From contig JAHCKS010000001.1 in NCBI GenBank assembly GCA_026125665.1, positions 1-64,000 of the forward strand: a stretch of DNA of 64,000 nt. The letters run 5' to 3'. This stretch comes from Rubrivivax sp. Its GTDB lineage: Bacteria > Pseudomonadota > Gammaproteobacteria > Burkholderiales > Burkholderiaceae_C. The stretch's first letter is position 1; each line of letters starts with the position of its first letter. The position numbers and the translations under genes are program-made. Positions 16,372 through 39,438 of this stretch are shown piece after piece. The notes below the pieces were generated by a model. It did no database searches and was not told where the DNA came from. It worked only from the letters and a program-made list of their open reading frames with translations.

Positions 16372-17331
16372 TCAATCCACCTGCGCCGGCGCCTCGCGCG
16401 GTGGCCCGCTGCTCGCGATTTGCGCCCAGGCCACGCCGGCCAGCGTGACGGCGGCACCGAAGAGCTTGACGGCGCCGAAGCGCTCGCCGGTGAAGACCCA
16501 GGCACCCAGCCCGGCGACGAGCGGCATCAGGTACATCAGCGGCGCCGTGCGGCCGACGCCGCGGCGTTCGTTCACCCAGCCCCACACCAGCCAGCCGAGG
16601 AAGGCCGAGACGAACGAGGCCCACAGCAGCAGGAACCAGTGCACCGCGCCCATCGCGGCCCACGGCGCCTGTGACGCCGGCCACGCGCTCACAAGCACCA
16701 CCGGCACGCTGCCGGCGAGCGTGGCATAGGCCATCACGGCCACGCCGCCGTGGCGCTGGATCAGCGGCTTGGTCATCACCGTGTAGTACGAGAAGAGCGA
16801 GGCGGAAAACAGCAGCACGAGGTCGCCGCCGGTGGCCGCCCACTGGCGGCCGAGCAGCTTGTCGGAGAGGAAGACGAGCACCCCGGCGCAGGCCAGTGCC
16901 ACGCCGAGCACCTGACCGCGCGTGAGCCGCTCGATGCGCGCCACGTGCAGGATGAGCAGCGTGAACACCGGCCCGCAGGCCAGGATGAGGGCGCTGGAGA
17001 ACGCCGTGGACCAGTGGATGCCGTAGGTGACGAGGCCGACGTGCAGCCCGTGCGCGACGACGCCCAGGCCGGCAAGGCGCCACGCGTCGGCGCGCGGCAG
17101 ATGCAGCCAGCGCCCGCGCGTCACCACCAGCAGCAGCGCCGCGGCGCAAGCCGGCATCACGAGGTAACGCACGAACAGGAAGCCCGACGGAGGCAGCACG
17201 ACGAAGAGCGCCTTCTGCACCGCGAAGTTGGCGCCCCACACCACCACGGTGACGAGGCCGGCAAAGAGCGCGAGCTGCTGCGCGCTGCCCGCACCGGCGG
17301 CCGGCAGCGCCGGCGAGGACGGGATGGACAT
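16372..17331 (-). CDS. EamA/DMT-superfamily transporter
   Basis: A 319-residue inner-membrane protein with about ten hydrophobic segments arranged as two EamA repeats. The first is around VTVVVWGANFAVQKALF; the second contains LFSASLFSYYTVMTKPLI and FTGERFGAVKLFGAAVTLAGV, the characteristic DMT closing motif. Members export amino acids, metabolites or drugs. The ATG at 17329-17331 was chosen over an upstream in-frame start because CACAAT lies 6 nt before it and the extra residues are not membrane-like. It is convergent with the VOC gene and neighbours the dispersed repeat on its 5' side. Substrate not inferable. Confidence 0.85.
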   Translation of the reverse strand: MSIPSSPALPAAGAGSAQQLALFAGLVTVVVWGANFAVQKALFVVLPPSGFLFVRYLVMPACAAALLLVVTRGRWLHLPRADAWRLAGLGVVAHGLHVGLVTYGIHWSTAFSSALILACGPVFTLLILHVARIERLTRGQVLGVALACAGVLVFLSDKLLGRQWAATGGDLVLLFSASLFSYYTVMTKPLIQRHGGVAVMAYATLAGSVPVVLVSAWPASQAPWAAMGAVHWFLLLWASFVSAFLGWLVWGWVNERRGVGRTAPLMYLMPLVAGLGAWVFTGERFGAVKLFGAAVTLAGVAWAQIASSGPPREAPAQVD

Positions 17332-17396
17332 GCGGCCATTGTGGGCCGCGCCGCGCCAGGCCGTGCCGCCGCAGGACATTCACCGGCCGGCTCACA

Positions 17397-17671
17397 AGAA
17401 GCTCTGCCTTTGCTTCATGCCGAATCGCGGCGCGCCAGTCCGAGGCCGCGGGGGGCCACTCAGGGCTCGGCATCCGAACACACGGACTGACGCCGCCTGC
17501 GCTCCAAGGTCGGTGGCCGCGCCTCGGGTGCCGAGCCCTGAGCGGCCCCCCACGACCTCGGACCTGCTCGAGGCGCCCGTGGTCTTCGCGCACGAACACT
17601 CGAACCGCGGCACAGCGCCGCGAGTCCCCGCCCGTATGCCACCCAGGTGCTTCGAGGGCCGATGCCGTGGG
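17397..17671 (-). repeat. Dispersed ~280-bp repeat, copy A (inverted relative to copy B at 39095)
   Basis: Read on the minus strand this segment matches 39095-39378 (plus strand) along nearly its whole length. Shared blocks include CACGGCATCGGCCCTCGA, ACCTGGGTGGCA, GCGCGAAGACCACG, a long palindrome, and ATGAAGCA near the end. The palindrome (17439-17562) has two 39-bp arms that agree at 35 of 39 positions, separated by 46 bp. Short open frames inside are not conserved as proteins. No transposase, terminal duplication or tRNA target was seen. It could be a non-autonomous element or a structured regulatory or terminator sequence. Confidence 0.8.
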
Positions 17672-17778
17672 GCCGCTCAGGGCATGGCACCCGAGGCGCG
17701 GCGGCGACGTTGGCAATCGCCCGGACCTTTGTCGTGTGTTCGGGTGCCATGCCCTGAGCGGCCCCACGGCATCGGCCC
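17656..17778. repeat. Perfect 39-bp inverted repeat (second palindrome of the repeat family)
   Basis: Bases 17656-17694 are exactly reverse-complementary to 17740-17778 (39 of 39), with a 45-bp spacer. The arms share the core TCGGGTGCC, GCCCTGAGCGGCCCC with the palindromes at 17439-17562 and 39207-39332. The spacer begins GGCGCGG and ends GTGTGT, as in those two. The perfect match of the arms indicates recent formation, active correction, or selection on a stem-loop. Confidence 0.9.
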
Positions 17779-17829
17779 GGCGCGCCGTGCGTGAGATCGG
17801 GACGCGCAGCAGGTTCGTTCACACCTCCT

Positions 17830-18045
17830 TCAGGGTGCGAAGCCGACGGTGAACACGCCCGGGCCCTGCACCGACAGGCGGGCCTCGTCGGGCGGTACCA
17901 GCACGAAGTTGTGATCGGCCTCCAGCTCGCTGAACGCGAGCGGGTTCTCGAAGAAGGTCCAGCCGGCGTACTGCGGTTGCGCGATCAGGGCCGCGAGCTT
18001 GGTGGTGTCTTCCGCGAACAGGACGCGGTATCGGCGTGTGGCCAT
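17830..18045 (-). CDS. Hypothetical 71-aa protein downstream of a lipoprotein
   Basis: The ATG at 18043-18045 is preceded by GAGGAG with 7-nt spacing. The product begins MATRRYRVLFAEDTTKLAALI and ends in GPGVFTVGFAP; it has no signal peptide or membrane segment and looks like a small alpha/beta domain. It starts 11 bp after the stop of the 469-aa lipoprotein on the same strand, so the two are almost certainly one transcript. I recognise no family. The pair is bounded on one side by the palindromic repeat and on the other by a divergent transporter. Confidence 0.65.
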   Translation of the reverse strand: MATRRYRVLFAEDTTKLAALIAQPQYAGWTFFENPLAFSELEADHNFVLVPPDEARLSVQGPGVFTVGFAP

Positions 18046-18056
18046 GGTCGTGCTCC

Positions 18057-19466
18057 TCAGGGTTGGGTGGCGGCCCGGATCAGGTCCTGACGGCGGAACG
18101 ACACCAGGCCGAGGAAACACTCGCGCGTCGCCTCCTTGGTGCCGGTTTCCGTGAAGCACGCCGGCCAGCGCATGACCTTGGCCGCCTTCTCCCTGACGCG
18201 CTGGAACCTGGCGGCATCGATCGCGGTGCCGGCGTCGTTGCTGATCGTCTTCCAGAACCCGTCGAACTCGTCACCTGCCATCGATTGAAGCCTGGACACT
18301 TCGTTCAGGAGGCGTTCCTGCTGCAGCGCGCGCTCCTGGGTGGCCGCGCCGAGGCTCGCCTTGATGTAGTCCAGGCAGCTGGTCTTCAGGTTGTCGGCGA
18401 CCGCACTGCCCGGCTGTCCGTCGGGCAGCGTCTTGAGGCACAGGAACAGGAACTCGTCCTGCGTGAAGTTCGACTGCACGATGAACTTGACGACCTCCGC
18501 CACGCTCTCGACCGACGACGCGCCACCGACGCGCTCGAGCGCCGGGCCGGCCGTCGGTGTCGCGACCTCCGCCTTGCCGCCCACCGGGACACCGGCTTCC
18601 CTGGCGGCCTTGCCGATCGACTCGTAGTGGTCCCTGGCCTCCTTGAACTGGTCTTCCTTCTTCTGCAGGTCGTCCTTCTTCGTCCTGCACTCGTCGGCCC
18701 TGGCCTTGATGTCCGCATGAAGCGCGGCCTTCGCCTCGTCGGTCGTCGCCTTGTCGATCTCGGTGCAGGCCTCGACCTTCTTGCCGTCGATCGTCACGCT
18801 CACGCCCTTGCGCGCCGCAAGCGCGGCGTCACGCGCCTTCTCCTTCGCGAGGACCTCGTCGCGGGCCTTGCCCAGCTCGGCGACCACACCGGCGGCCGAC
18901 GCGCCGGCATTGGCCTGCGCGATGGCGCCGAGCGCCACGGACCTCGACGCCACCGCCCCCGTCAACTGCTCGATGGCCAGGATGGACACCATCAACCGCT
19001 GGTCACGGATGGCCTGGAGCGGCAGTTCGAGCGACGTGATGCCGCCGTTCAGGTAGCGCTCGCAGGTGCGATACATCAGCTCGCGCAGCATGTTGATCGT
19101 CTGCGTGCGCGGGATCGTCGACCCCTGCTCCGACGAGGCGAAGGCCGCGCTGAGCGCCAGCTCGATCGCCTTGGGGTCTGCCTGCTGGCCGAACGTCCCG
19201 CCGACCGACAGCGACTGCGCAATGACGGAGAACACGTCCGGGCTGGGTTCGGCGCAGAAGCGCTGCACCGTCCCGGTCCTCTGGGCCCCGGCTGTTGATT
19301 CGTTGTTGGACACGATCGCCCGCTGCTTCGCGTCGGTCAGCGTGATCGACGCCCCCGCTGCCACGGCCTCGTGCCTGTAGATCGACTTGTGGTTCGCGCT
19401 GCAGGCCGCCACGAGCGAAGCCAAGGCCACGATGCCTGCGCGCAACCCCAGTGCCCGGATGTCCAT
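18057..19466 (-). CDS. Hypothetical lipoprotein with a coiled-coil middle (469 aa)
   Basis: The N-terminus has a lipoprotein signal (hydrophobic LRAGIVALASLVAACS with lipobox LVAAC, acylated Cys ~22), and the ATG follows GGGGGAGAG. Residues ~100-200 are helical. Residues ~195-290 are rich in Ala, Lys, Glu and Asp (ARDEVLAKEKARDAALAAR, KKDDLQKKEDQFKEARDHYE), consistent with a coiled coil. The C-terminal ~150 residues are helical with several Cys. I do not recognise the family. It is probably anchored to the periplasmic face of a membrane and co-expressed with the 71-aa protein just downstream. Base composition looks slightly less GC-rich than its neighbours, so acquisition is possible but not shown. 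Confidence 0.8.
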   Translation of the reverse strand: MDIRALGLRAGIVALASLVAACSANHKSIYRHEAVAAGASITLTDAKQRAIVSNNESTAGAQRTGTVQRFCAEPSPDVFSVIAQSLSVGGTFGQQADPKAIELALSAAFASSEQGSTIPRTQTINMLRELMYRTCERYLNGGITSLELPLQAIRDQRLMVSILAIEQLTGAVASRSVALGAIAQANAGASAAGVVAELGKARDEVLAKEKARDAALAARKGVSVTIDGKKVEACTEIDKATTDEAKAALHADIKARADECRTKKDDLQKKEDQFKEARDHYESIGKAAREAGVPVGGKAEVATPTAGPALERVGGASSVESVAEVVKFIVQSNFTQDEFLFLCLKTLPDGQPGSAVADNLKTSCLDYIKASLGAATQERALQQERLLNEVSRLQSMAGDEFDGFWKTISNDAGTAIDAARFQRVREKAAKVMRWPACFTETGTKEATRECFLGLVSFRRQDLIRAATQP

Positions 19467-37613: not shown

Positions 37614-38648
37614 ATGTCGTCCGACGAACGCGCCACACTGCACGACGTTGCCCGCGCGGCGGGCGTCAGCCTGGCCACGGTCGACCGTGTGCTGCACGGT
37701 CGTGGCGGCGTGCGCACGCGCACGATCGAGCGCGTGCAGTCCGTCGTCGAGCGGCTCGGCTACCGCCCCGACCCGGCCGCCGCGCGGCTCGCGCGCAAGA
37801 ACCAGTCGCGCCTGGTGTTCGTGCTGCCCGCGGGCACCAACACCTTCGTCGACATGCTCGACCGGCAGGTCCGGTCGATGGCGCCGTGGCTCGCCGAACA
37901 GCGCGCCACCGCCGTGGTGCAGCGCGCCGACGTGTTCTCGCCGCAGGCGCTGGCGGGCCATCTCGCCGGGCTGCACGGCCGCTTCGATGCCGTCATCGTC
38001 ATGGGACTCGACCACCCGCTGGTGCGGGCCGCCATCGACGACCTGGTCGCCGACGGCATCGTCGTGATGACGCTGGTCTCCGACGTGCCGGGGTCGCAGC
38101 GCAGCCGCTTCGTCGGCATCGAGAACGTCACGGCGGGGCGCACGGCGGCGTCGCTGCTGGGCCGCTTCGTCGGGCCCCGACCGGGCAGCGTGGGCATCGT
38201 CATGGGCAGCCGGGGCCTGCGCGATCACGCCGAACGGCTGTTCGGATTCGAACAGGTCATGGGTGCGGAGTTCGGCACCCTGAAGCTGTTGCCGCCGATC
38301 GAAGGCCAGGACCGATCGGATCGCACGGAGCCGCTCGTCGGGCAACTTCTCGCGCACCACCCCGAGCTCGTGGGCCTGTACAGCATCGGCGCCGGCAACC
38401 GCGGCATCCAGGCCGCACTCGAGCGCAGCGGGCGCGCGGCGAAGATCGTCTGGGTCTGCCACGAACTGACGCCGCATGCCCGGCAGGCACTGCTGACGGG
38501 CGTCGCGGACGCGGTCATCAACCAGGACGCCGGCCACGAGGTGCGCTCGTCCTGCCGCCTGGCGCTGGCCGCGCTGTCGGGCGAGCGCGTGCTGCCGGAG
38601 CAGGAGCGCATCCGCATCGACATCTTCCTGCGCGACAACATGCCGTGA
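37614..38648 (+). CDS. LacI-family transcriptional regulator of the sugar block
   Basis: A 344-residue regulator. The N-terminal HTH and hinge helix read LHDVARAAGVSLATVDRVLHG and GYRPDPAAARLARK. Residues ~60-340 form a Peripla_BP-like sensor (LVFVLPAGTNTFVDMLDRQV, VMGLDHPLVRAAIDDLVADGI, FVGIENVTAGRTAASLLGRF). The sensor resembles those of CUT2-linked regulators that bind free sugars. Its promoter contains one of four copies of a shared palindrome, the other three lying at CUT2 operons, so it is the obvious local regulator. The leader is only ~6 nt after the -10-like box, suggesting a leaderless or nearly leaderless transcript. Confidence 0.88.
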   Translation: MSSDERATLHDVARAAGVSLATVDRVLHGRGGVRTRTIERVQSVVERLGYRPDPAAARLARKNQSRLVFVLPAGTNTFVDMLDRQVRSMAPWLAEQRATAVVQRADVFSPQALAGHLAGLHGRFDAVIVMGLDHPLVRAAIDDLVADGIVVMTLVSDVPGSQRSRFVGIENVTAGRTAASLLGRFVGPRPGSVGIVMGSRGLRDHAERLFGFEQVMGAEFGTLKLLPPIEGQDRSDRTEPLVGQLLAHHPELVGLYSIGAGNRGIQAALERSGRAAKIVWVCHELTPHARQALLTGVADAVINQDAGHEVRSSCRLALAALSGERVLPEQERIRIDIFLRDNMP

Positions 38649-38661
38649 GCGACTGCGGCGC

Positions 38662-38688
38662 GGGGGGGGGGGGCCGCGCCGCTATGCT
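38662..38688 (+). promoter_or_regulatory. Candidate promoter with a G12 homopolymer in the spacer
   Basis: A run of twelve G (38662-38673) is followed by CCGCGCCGC and a TATGCT -10-like box (38683-38688), 29 bp before the ATG at 38717. A -35 element 17 bp upstream of the box would lie at 38660-38665, so the G-run falls in the spacer. Such tracts can vary in length by slippage and alter promoter strength. Confidence 0.45.
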
Positions 38689-38716
38689 GCCGGGCCTCGA
38701 TGAAGGAGCCCTGTCC

Positions 38717-39082
38717 ATGGAACTCGATGCAAAGGGCCTGGCCACGCGCCGGGCCGTGCTCGGCGACGCCTACGTCGACAACGCGCTGGCCAAGGCCACT
38801 TCGTTCTCGGCCCCGCTGCAGGAGCTGGTGACGCGCCACGCCTGGGGCAACACCTGGCAGCGCCCGGGCATCGACCTGCGCACGCGCAGCATCGTCACCG
38901 TCTCGATGCTCGTGGCGCTCGGGCGCATGCACGAGCTGAAGATCCACGTGCGGGGCGCACTGAACAACGGCGTGACGAAGGAAGAGCTGCAGGAGATCTT
39001 CCTGCACGCCAGCGTGTACTGCGGCTTCCCGGCGGCGGTGGACGCGTTCCGCAACGCGGCCGAGGTGATCGACGCGGCTTGA
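38717..39082 (+). CDS. Carboxymuconolactone-decarboxylase-family protein (PcaC-like)
   Basis: A 121-residue all-helical protein: WGNTWQRPGIDLRTRSIVTVSMLVALGRMHELKIHVRGALNNGVTKEELQEIFLHASVYCGFPAAVDAFR. This matches the CMD/AhpD-like family, in particular 4-carboxymuconolactone decarboxylases that act in the protocatechuate branch of the beta-ketoadipate pathway. The CxxC of AhpD peroxidases is absent; only one Cys (VYCGFP) is present. AAGGAG precedes the ATG. No other protocatechuate genes are adjacent, so the true substrate is uncertain. It is downstream of, but probably independent from, the LacI gene. Confidence 0.85.
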   Translation: MELDAKGLATRRAVLGDAYVDNALAKATSFSAPLQELVTRHAWGNTWQRPGIDLRTRSIVTVSMLVALGRMHELKIHVRGALNNGVTKEELQEIFLHASVYCGFPAAVDAFRNAAEVIDAA

Positions 39083-39094
39083 GAGCATCCCGGG

Positions 39095-39378
39095 CCCACG
39101 GCATCGGCCCTCGACATACCTGGGTGGCACACGGGCGGGCGGCGATCGCGGCGCCCGTGCCGCCGTTCGGGTGTCGGCGCGCGAAGACCACGAGCGCCTC
39201 GAGCGAGTCCGAGGTCGTGGGGGCCGCTCAGGGCTTGGCACCCGAGGCGCGGCCACCGGCCTGGGGGCGCAGGCGGCGGTGCGCCGTGTGTTCGGGTGCC
39301 GAGCCCTGATTGAGCGGGCCCCCGCGGCCTCGGGCTTGCGCGCTACGATTCCCCATGAAGCAGGGGTTCAGCTTCTCG
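39095..39378 (+). repeat. Dispersed ~280-bp repeat, copy B
   Basis: This segment fills most of the gap between the CMD-like gene and the CoA-transferase gene and matches copy A (17397-17671, opposite strand) over almost its full length. Its palindrome has arms near 39207-39244 and 39292-39332 with a ~47-bp spacer starting GGCGCGG and ending GTGTGT. One arm carries a few extra bases, so this stem is less perfect than those at 17.5 kb. It ends CTACGATTCCCCATGAAGCA. Open frames in it are not supported as genes. Confidence 0.8.
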
Positions 39379-39438
39379 AGAGGCCGAAGGGCCCGGCGCC
39401 GCACCGGCGGGTGACGCCGGCCGCCGCCAGCGACGGAT

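Follow-up and report, generated by a model that had tools for sequence, protein, structure and literature searches.

Several families of dispersed palindromic repeats resemble the element described here. The palindrome-associated transposable elements (PATEs) of Haloquadratum (PMC3119063) are, according to the part of their description available to us, too short to encode a transposase, lack terminal inverted repeats and carry similar palindromes near their ends; no target duplication was seen, a short terminal oligonucleotide is conserved and core deletions have arisen through repeats. REPs of the GTAG and CGTC types and REPINs are depicted, in the available portions of three reports (PMC3733652, PMC8266576, PMC6006769), as dispersed palindromes located 3' of genes between convergent or unidirectional open reading frames (ORFs), often as dimers of opposite orientation. 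Some of them supply stop codons, as reported for GTAG REPs in the accessible part of PMC3733652, and E. coli TnpAREP cleaves at CT beside the REP (PMC8266576, likewise available in part). Class 3 HuH endonuclease-associated repeats, as outlined in the accessible section of PMC6006769, are high-copy structures with a CnGA foot.

The repeat analysed here, designated M1, occurs twice in the window, i.e. the whole stretch of 64,000 nucleotides of Rubrivivax sp. DNA under study. It shares with PATEs the lack of coding capacity for a transposase, the lack of terminal inverted repeats, the similar near-terminal palindromes (hairpin H2 begins some 75 nt into the sense strand), the conserved short terminal oligonucleotide and the core deletions through repeats; as to target duplications, no variable one was seen at the ends compared. 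It differs from the published account of PATEs, as far as this was available, in its arms of at least 39 nt, in its stop-codon address, which is absent from that account, and in that no IS605-type parent was found here. M1 lies 3' of convergent or unidirectional ORFs as do REPs and REPINs, and most of its starts are located behind C-T, which recalls the cleavage by TnpAREP. However, its tag is TGAG instead of GTAG or CGTC and its unit measures about 465 bp instead of 20–40 bp; in place of GT[AG]G at the foot of a 20–40 nt palindrome, M1 starts with (C)TGAGCATCCC and H2 follows about 75 nt downstream. No RAYT was found in the assembly to which the window belongs, which is 88.6% complete. The position of M1 and of a second repeat, M2, mostly behind CTGA is comparable to the CnGA foot of class 3 HuH-associated repeats; unlike these, as partly described, M1 has its large hairpin away from the foot, and no such endonuclease gene was found here. 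In the best reading, M1 is a PATE/REP-like element of a generally known kind with an unusual address. The preliminary description of this DNA had recognised no known family, which was right by the sequence searches made; it is the architecture of M1 that recalls PATEs and tagged REPs. Among the top-ranked results from the open PMC literature, obtained without the host genus as a search term, we recognised neither a repeat identical with M1 nor a TGAG-tagged stop-codon family.

Architecture of M1

Two palindromes were recounted in the window. Positions 17656–17694 are the exact reverse complement of 17740–17778 (39/39), and 17439–17477 match 17524–17562 in inverted orientation at 35 of 39 positions, with arms that extend to 43/52 over 17426–17477/17524–17575. 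These values and the spacers of 45 and 46 nt agree with the preliminary description, which had assigned the palindromes to a dispersed family with 39-bp arms and one of them to a 280-bp element. The dispersal was borne out, but neither unit was correct: the palindromes form the two halves of a single element, M1, which measures about 465 bp and at 17397–17778 runs, in its sense direction, against the window strand. This unity and the stop-codon address are the two features that go beyond the earlier account.

The alignment of long copies revealed the order of parts in sense direction. M1 starts with TGA|GCATCCCAGGCCC (TGA|GCATCCC...), followed by about 75 nt, H2, a linker of about 95 nt and H1; behind H1 stand a small hairpin, GAAGC-AAGGTTCA-GCTTC, and the terminus TYGAGAG(C), the element ending in ...GCTTCTYGAGAG. 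H1 and H2 differ in their outer arms, have a common inner arm and contain loops inverted with respect to each other, so that M1 over most of its length aligns with its own reverse complement at about 71%. Judged from these sequences, the two hairpins go back to a single unit in inverted orientation.

Copy 1 occupies 17390–17789 with its sense on the minus strand and comprises H2 (17656–17778, with the perfect 39-bp palindrome), the linker (17576–17655, as defined by the alignment of 14 copies) and H1 (17426–17575, with the 35/39 palindrome). At the sense 5' end of this copy, some 60 nt have been replaced by a repeat designated M3, half of which (17790–17832, minus strand) lies between copy 1 and the stop codon of the host gene, a TGA at 17830–17832 belonging to the minus-strand ORF 17830–18159. 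The best full-length copies elsewhere are 84–90% identical to copy 1. Copy 2 (39083–39382, sense on the plus strand) is located directly behind the TGA (39080–39082) of the plus-strand ORF 37886–39082, its docking site; it has lost H2 and kept H1 (39200–39337). It contains the inverted copy noticed earlier, which is indeed present at 39091–39376 and matches query positions 1–279 at 84%.

Shortened copies elsewhere consist of H1 only, of H2 only or of an H1 arm joined to the loop and arm of H2. They are joined at the repeated arms, as expected of slippage or recombination. No coding frame is kept among the copies, and the earlier proviso that copies might fall inside genes with a conserved frame did not apply: relative to the full copy at L034, 13 of 13 other full copies carry at least one gap whose length is not divisible by three. 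Open frames of more than 100 codons occur frequently in M1, which the GC content leads one to expect, and an overlapping long frame was flagged at 7 of 52 places (L032, L033, L041, L042, L045, L047 and L071).

Copy number and distribution

The assembly of the host (6.28 Mb in 268 contigs) was searched with positions 17397–17800, which yielded 91 matches, many of them representing one copy that matches also in reverse. From 48 loci fetched in this genome, 51 two-armed palindromes were extracted, those of the window included. M1 occurs, whole or in part, at 52 places, two of them in the window, and the further copies which the preliminary description had asked for were thus found. The arm core TCGGGTGCCRWGCCCTGAGCGG matched 59 times in forward and 58 times in reverse direction with at most 3 mismatches, as compared to 0 and 1 matches of a reversed control pattern, and hence the palindrome family is not a product of chance. 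The 52 places, the existence of M1-less sites in a congener and the docking behind other repeats support the mobile element suggested earlier.

In 80 congeners, 10 genomes contained one arm-core match each, every one with 2 mismatches, and the control pattern gave 7 matches in 6 genomes. No M1 was detected there beyond this background, likewise in keeping with a mobile element, and M1 appears to have spread within the present lineage. Six weak matches of 30–40 nt in relatives were rejected, none having an inverted repeat of at least 13 nt at the match; at two of these relatives' loci (L009 and L012), unrelated inverted repeats of 13–17 nt lie away from it. Plasmid records contained no match to M1. 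Two arm-core matches in GTDB genomes and two in viral contigs were judged to be chance because inspection by eye revealed no second arm within 120 nt on either side; in these collections, the host genome or its near kin may be absent.

Contigs of the host assembly end inside M1 or at most 15 nt away from it at 14 loci (L040, L044, L051, L054, L057, L064, L068, L070, L072, L073, L075, L076, L078 and L097). M1 seems to be a main cause of the fragmentation of this assembly.

Insertion behind stop codons

Among 37 sense starts of M1, 9 are located behind M2 and 3 behind another M1, always in the same orientation, and 25 are direct. A gene stop codon lies at most 8 nt from 19 of the 25 direct starts, and 13 begin exactly at TGA|. 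For four others (L032, L040, L070 and L063) the nearest stop codon is 26 to 133 nt away, and for two (L071 and L054) none was found. At 38 of the 52 places a gene was scored on each side; these contexts comprise 18 convergent arrangements, 15 unidirectional ones with the sense gene, 5 opposite and no divergent ones. The upstream gene is in sense orientation in 33 of the 38 according to a rough ORF caller, as L077 and window copy 2, counted among the five opposite cases, do have a sense gene.

Where TGA immediately precedes a direct start (n = 17), it is preceded by C in 15 cases and followed by G in 16. Within the window, 39 of 148 TGA sites outside coding interiors are at a stop codon, compared with 26 of 56 CTGA sites and 13 of 19 CTGAG sites, the latter taken as tolerated targets. 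The observed 19 of 25 is far above expectation for TGA alone as the target (P = 3e-7), above expectation for CTGA (P = 0.003) and as expected for CTGAG (P = 0.28). Since a CTGAG target alone accounts for such a proportion, a special stop-codon sensor is not needed; this motif together with the loss of in-gene insertions suffices for the address. The data are compatible with the presence as well as with the absence of a stop-codon preference beyond the motif.

We consider it probable, with some reserve, that M1 is a mobile element which bears palindromes, is non-autonomous, uses C-TGA(G) as its target and enters it in one orientation. Its dispersal, orientation and address, the M1-less sites in a congener, the chaining and the shortening through repeated arms are demonstrated. 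According to this model, M1 would insert one-way behind C-TGA(G) sites, which outside coding interiors of a compact high-GC genome would mostly be existing stop codons; M1 would consequently form the 3'UTR of the preceding gene, in most cases with no change to the protein. Its own terminus carries TTGAG or GTGAG, behind which a further M1 or M2 can dock. The element is presumably tolerated as a 3'UTR hairpin with a mild or neutral effect, for example protection of the mRNA 3' end. In this manner, the combination of a short target motif with a compact genome could make a mobile repeat the 3'UTR of dozens of genes, with a single orientation and with the protein mostly untouched.

Repeats M2 and M3

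M2 is a GC-rich hairpin repeat of 80 bp with the ends TGAGC...TTGAGAG, which starts mostly at TGA stop codons. Matches were obtained in 28 of 37 genomes of the genus, the host included, and in 1 of 24 others, over 25 nt. The loci studied are L093, L094 and L096–L099 in the host and L100–L112 in congeners. Eight of the 13 congener loci start exactly at the stop of a gene and two lie 6 and 17 nt behind it; for three, none was found. Many M2 host genes end with ...TTC TGA and thus encode a C-terminal phenylalanine, a feature of outer-membrane proteins.

M2 stands between a stop codon and M1 at L036, L037, L041, L045, L055, L056, L058, L064 and L067, and in all nine pairs it begins at the stop codon. 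M2-like sequence was also detected behind M1, at L047 and L069 by BLAST and at L074 by eye. In most starts both repeats begin behind CTGA; they end in TTGAGAG and chain with each other. One may speculate that a single undescribed, non-Y1 machinery of the genus, docking at stop codons, serves M1, M2 and possibly also M3 as mutually unrelated hairpin repeats, an idea to which we give little credence at present. M1 and M2 are unrelated in sequence, have common end motifs and a common address, and occur in genomes in which no Y1 transposase was detected. This likeness makes it possible to test, in a single genus, what mobilises orphan REP-like repeats.

M3, a third repeat with the ends AGGAGGTGTGAA/TTCACACCTCCT, measures about 84 bp in L070 and is found beside stop codons or M1. 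Stretches of it were located at 17790–17832 of the window, L070:849–931, L063:1189–1301 and L078:1400–1430.

Pairing of the hairpin arms

The preliminary description had offered a structured RNA, or selection on DNA secondary structure, as an explanation of the palindromes, which the data support in part. A rival to the mobile element can be derived from this: M1 may be a functional 3'UTR RNA, a terminator or mRNA stabiliser, that is selected at stop codons and for which mobility is secondary. Its oriented 3' placement fits, and so does the highly stable fold predicted for the L034 copy as RNA (−331.6 kcal/mol, z = −13.4). In 38 hairpins, retained from 51 after 13 hybrid or broken units were left out and with the G/C run re-registered by a script, 97.3% of the arm cells are paired. 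Cells changed on both sides number 75, as compared to at most 49 in 500 shuffles, which ignore relatedness. The arms do covary, and we take their pairing as maintained; palindromic arms could, however, copy each other and in this way also give rise to covariation.

In sense direction, the 38 hairpins contain 52 G.U and 24 A.C cells, a difference resting on three positions with frequent wobble pairs, and no position has frequent A.C. The numbers of distinct pair types, 11 for G.U and 14 for A.C, favour neither strand and count against an RNA. Among all 51 units, the counts for G.U, A.C and 'other' amount to 23, 18 and 20 in the core and to 54, 15 and 40 in the outer arm. Further observations speak against a selected RNA: by eye, no T run follows the hairpins; three loci (L034, L036 and L093) gave no Rfam family at the gathering score; many copies are shortened; orthologous genes of congener G012 manage without M1; and a CTGAG target with loss of coding insertions accounts for the placement. 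A search of positions 17300–17900 yielded 11 Rfam matches, all below the gathering score and mostly microRNA hairpins, which were judged to be chance. Taken as the primary role of M1, a functional 3'UTR RNA is unlikely.

Origin of the stop codons

Congener G012, whose genome is 99% complete and without M1, enabled a comparison of occupied and empty sites. At the sites of L060 and L034 both flanking genes are joined in G012 without M1, and the gene upstream of window copy 2 terminates in this congener at an unchanged TGA that no M1 follows. The comparison bears on a second rival, namely that M1 brings its own TGA, landing near gene ends where its tag becomes the stop codon, as with GTAG REPs. 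Nine M1 sites were readable (L062, L048, L049, L068, L038, L043, L074, L060 and window copy 2); the first seven come from 15 orthologue rows, of which those of L077, L044, L039, L065, L053, L035 (two rows) and L073 were dropped as non-orthologous or out of frame, and L034, aligned on both flanks, was left uncounted owing to the divergence of its gene end. At 7 of the 9 sites the G012 gene stops at an identical codon position; at L043 the orthologue has one additional codon, and at L060 it has two, where G012 reads AAGGTC GAG GTG TAG and the host gene AAGGTC TGA. L060 alone looks like a stop supplied by the element. For M2 (16 genes, 14 matches, 12 rows used, 10 past the filter), the position of the gene end agrees in 9 of 10 cases.

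TAG or TAA is used by 4 of 9 orthologues at M1 sites, which would suit a TGA carried by the element. TGA is nevertheless also the stop in 5 of 9 M1 and 9 of 10 M2 orthologues (14 of 19 in all), as compared to 16 of 21 for TGA genes of the window serving as controls (36 genes, 32 matches listed, 23 rows used, 21 past the score and tail filter). These proportions give no sign of an element-supplied stop, and together with the unchanged stop positions they render a TGA brought by M1 distinctly improbable.

Mode of transposition

M1 would move as single-stranded DNA, with a transposase acting in trans that reads the hairpins, of the HUH type known from IS200/IS605 derivatives and REPs; the enzyme is probably encoded elsewhere. 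Termini that are not inverted repeats, the lack of a variable target duplication, the single orientation, the short target, the similar motif at the 3' end and the hairpins near the ends fit an insertion of this kind. The start of H2 about 75 nt behind the TGAG tag was counted against this model, the palindrome of tagged REPs being located at the tag itself. A classical MITE with a DDE transposase, terminal inverted repeats and target duplications, for which the high copy number, the lack of a kept coding frame and the inverted similarity of the two halves could be quoted, is very improbable in view of the single orientation relative to genes and of ends that, compared by eye, have neither terminal inverted repeats (TGAGCATCCC at the sense start as against CTCTYRAGAAGC for the complemented end) nor a variable target duplication. 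The ends of M1 are located with less than single-base accuracy, and a constant duplication contained in TGAG/GAG would escape notice. Subterminal inverted similarity exists, with AAGAAGCTG and ATCRCGGCGCGC on both sides, and would be compatible with an enzyme that reads inverted repeats in M1.

By eye, no transposase was found between the M1 ends at four loci (L094, L071, L046 and L052). The Y1 transposase profile PF01797 gave no match in the host assembly, which at 88.6% completeness is not decisive. A search with PF04986 lacked power, as the control genomes gave no match. PF01797 matched in 33 of 81 genomes of the genus (E ≤ 0.001) and gave no match in congeners G017, G014 and G021, where M2 is abundant. 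Twenty congener Y1 loci of about 3 kb each contained no convincing M1 or M2, the weak matches having E values of 0.007 (32 nt) and 0.044. The RAYT-like Y1 loci L117, L118, L121 and L124 of congeners carry inverted repeats of the GGGGTCAGGTCTTGCC type, variants of which are present at L116, L128 and L129.
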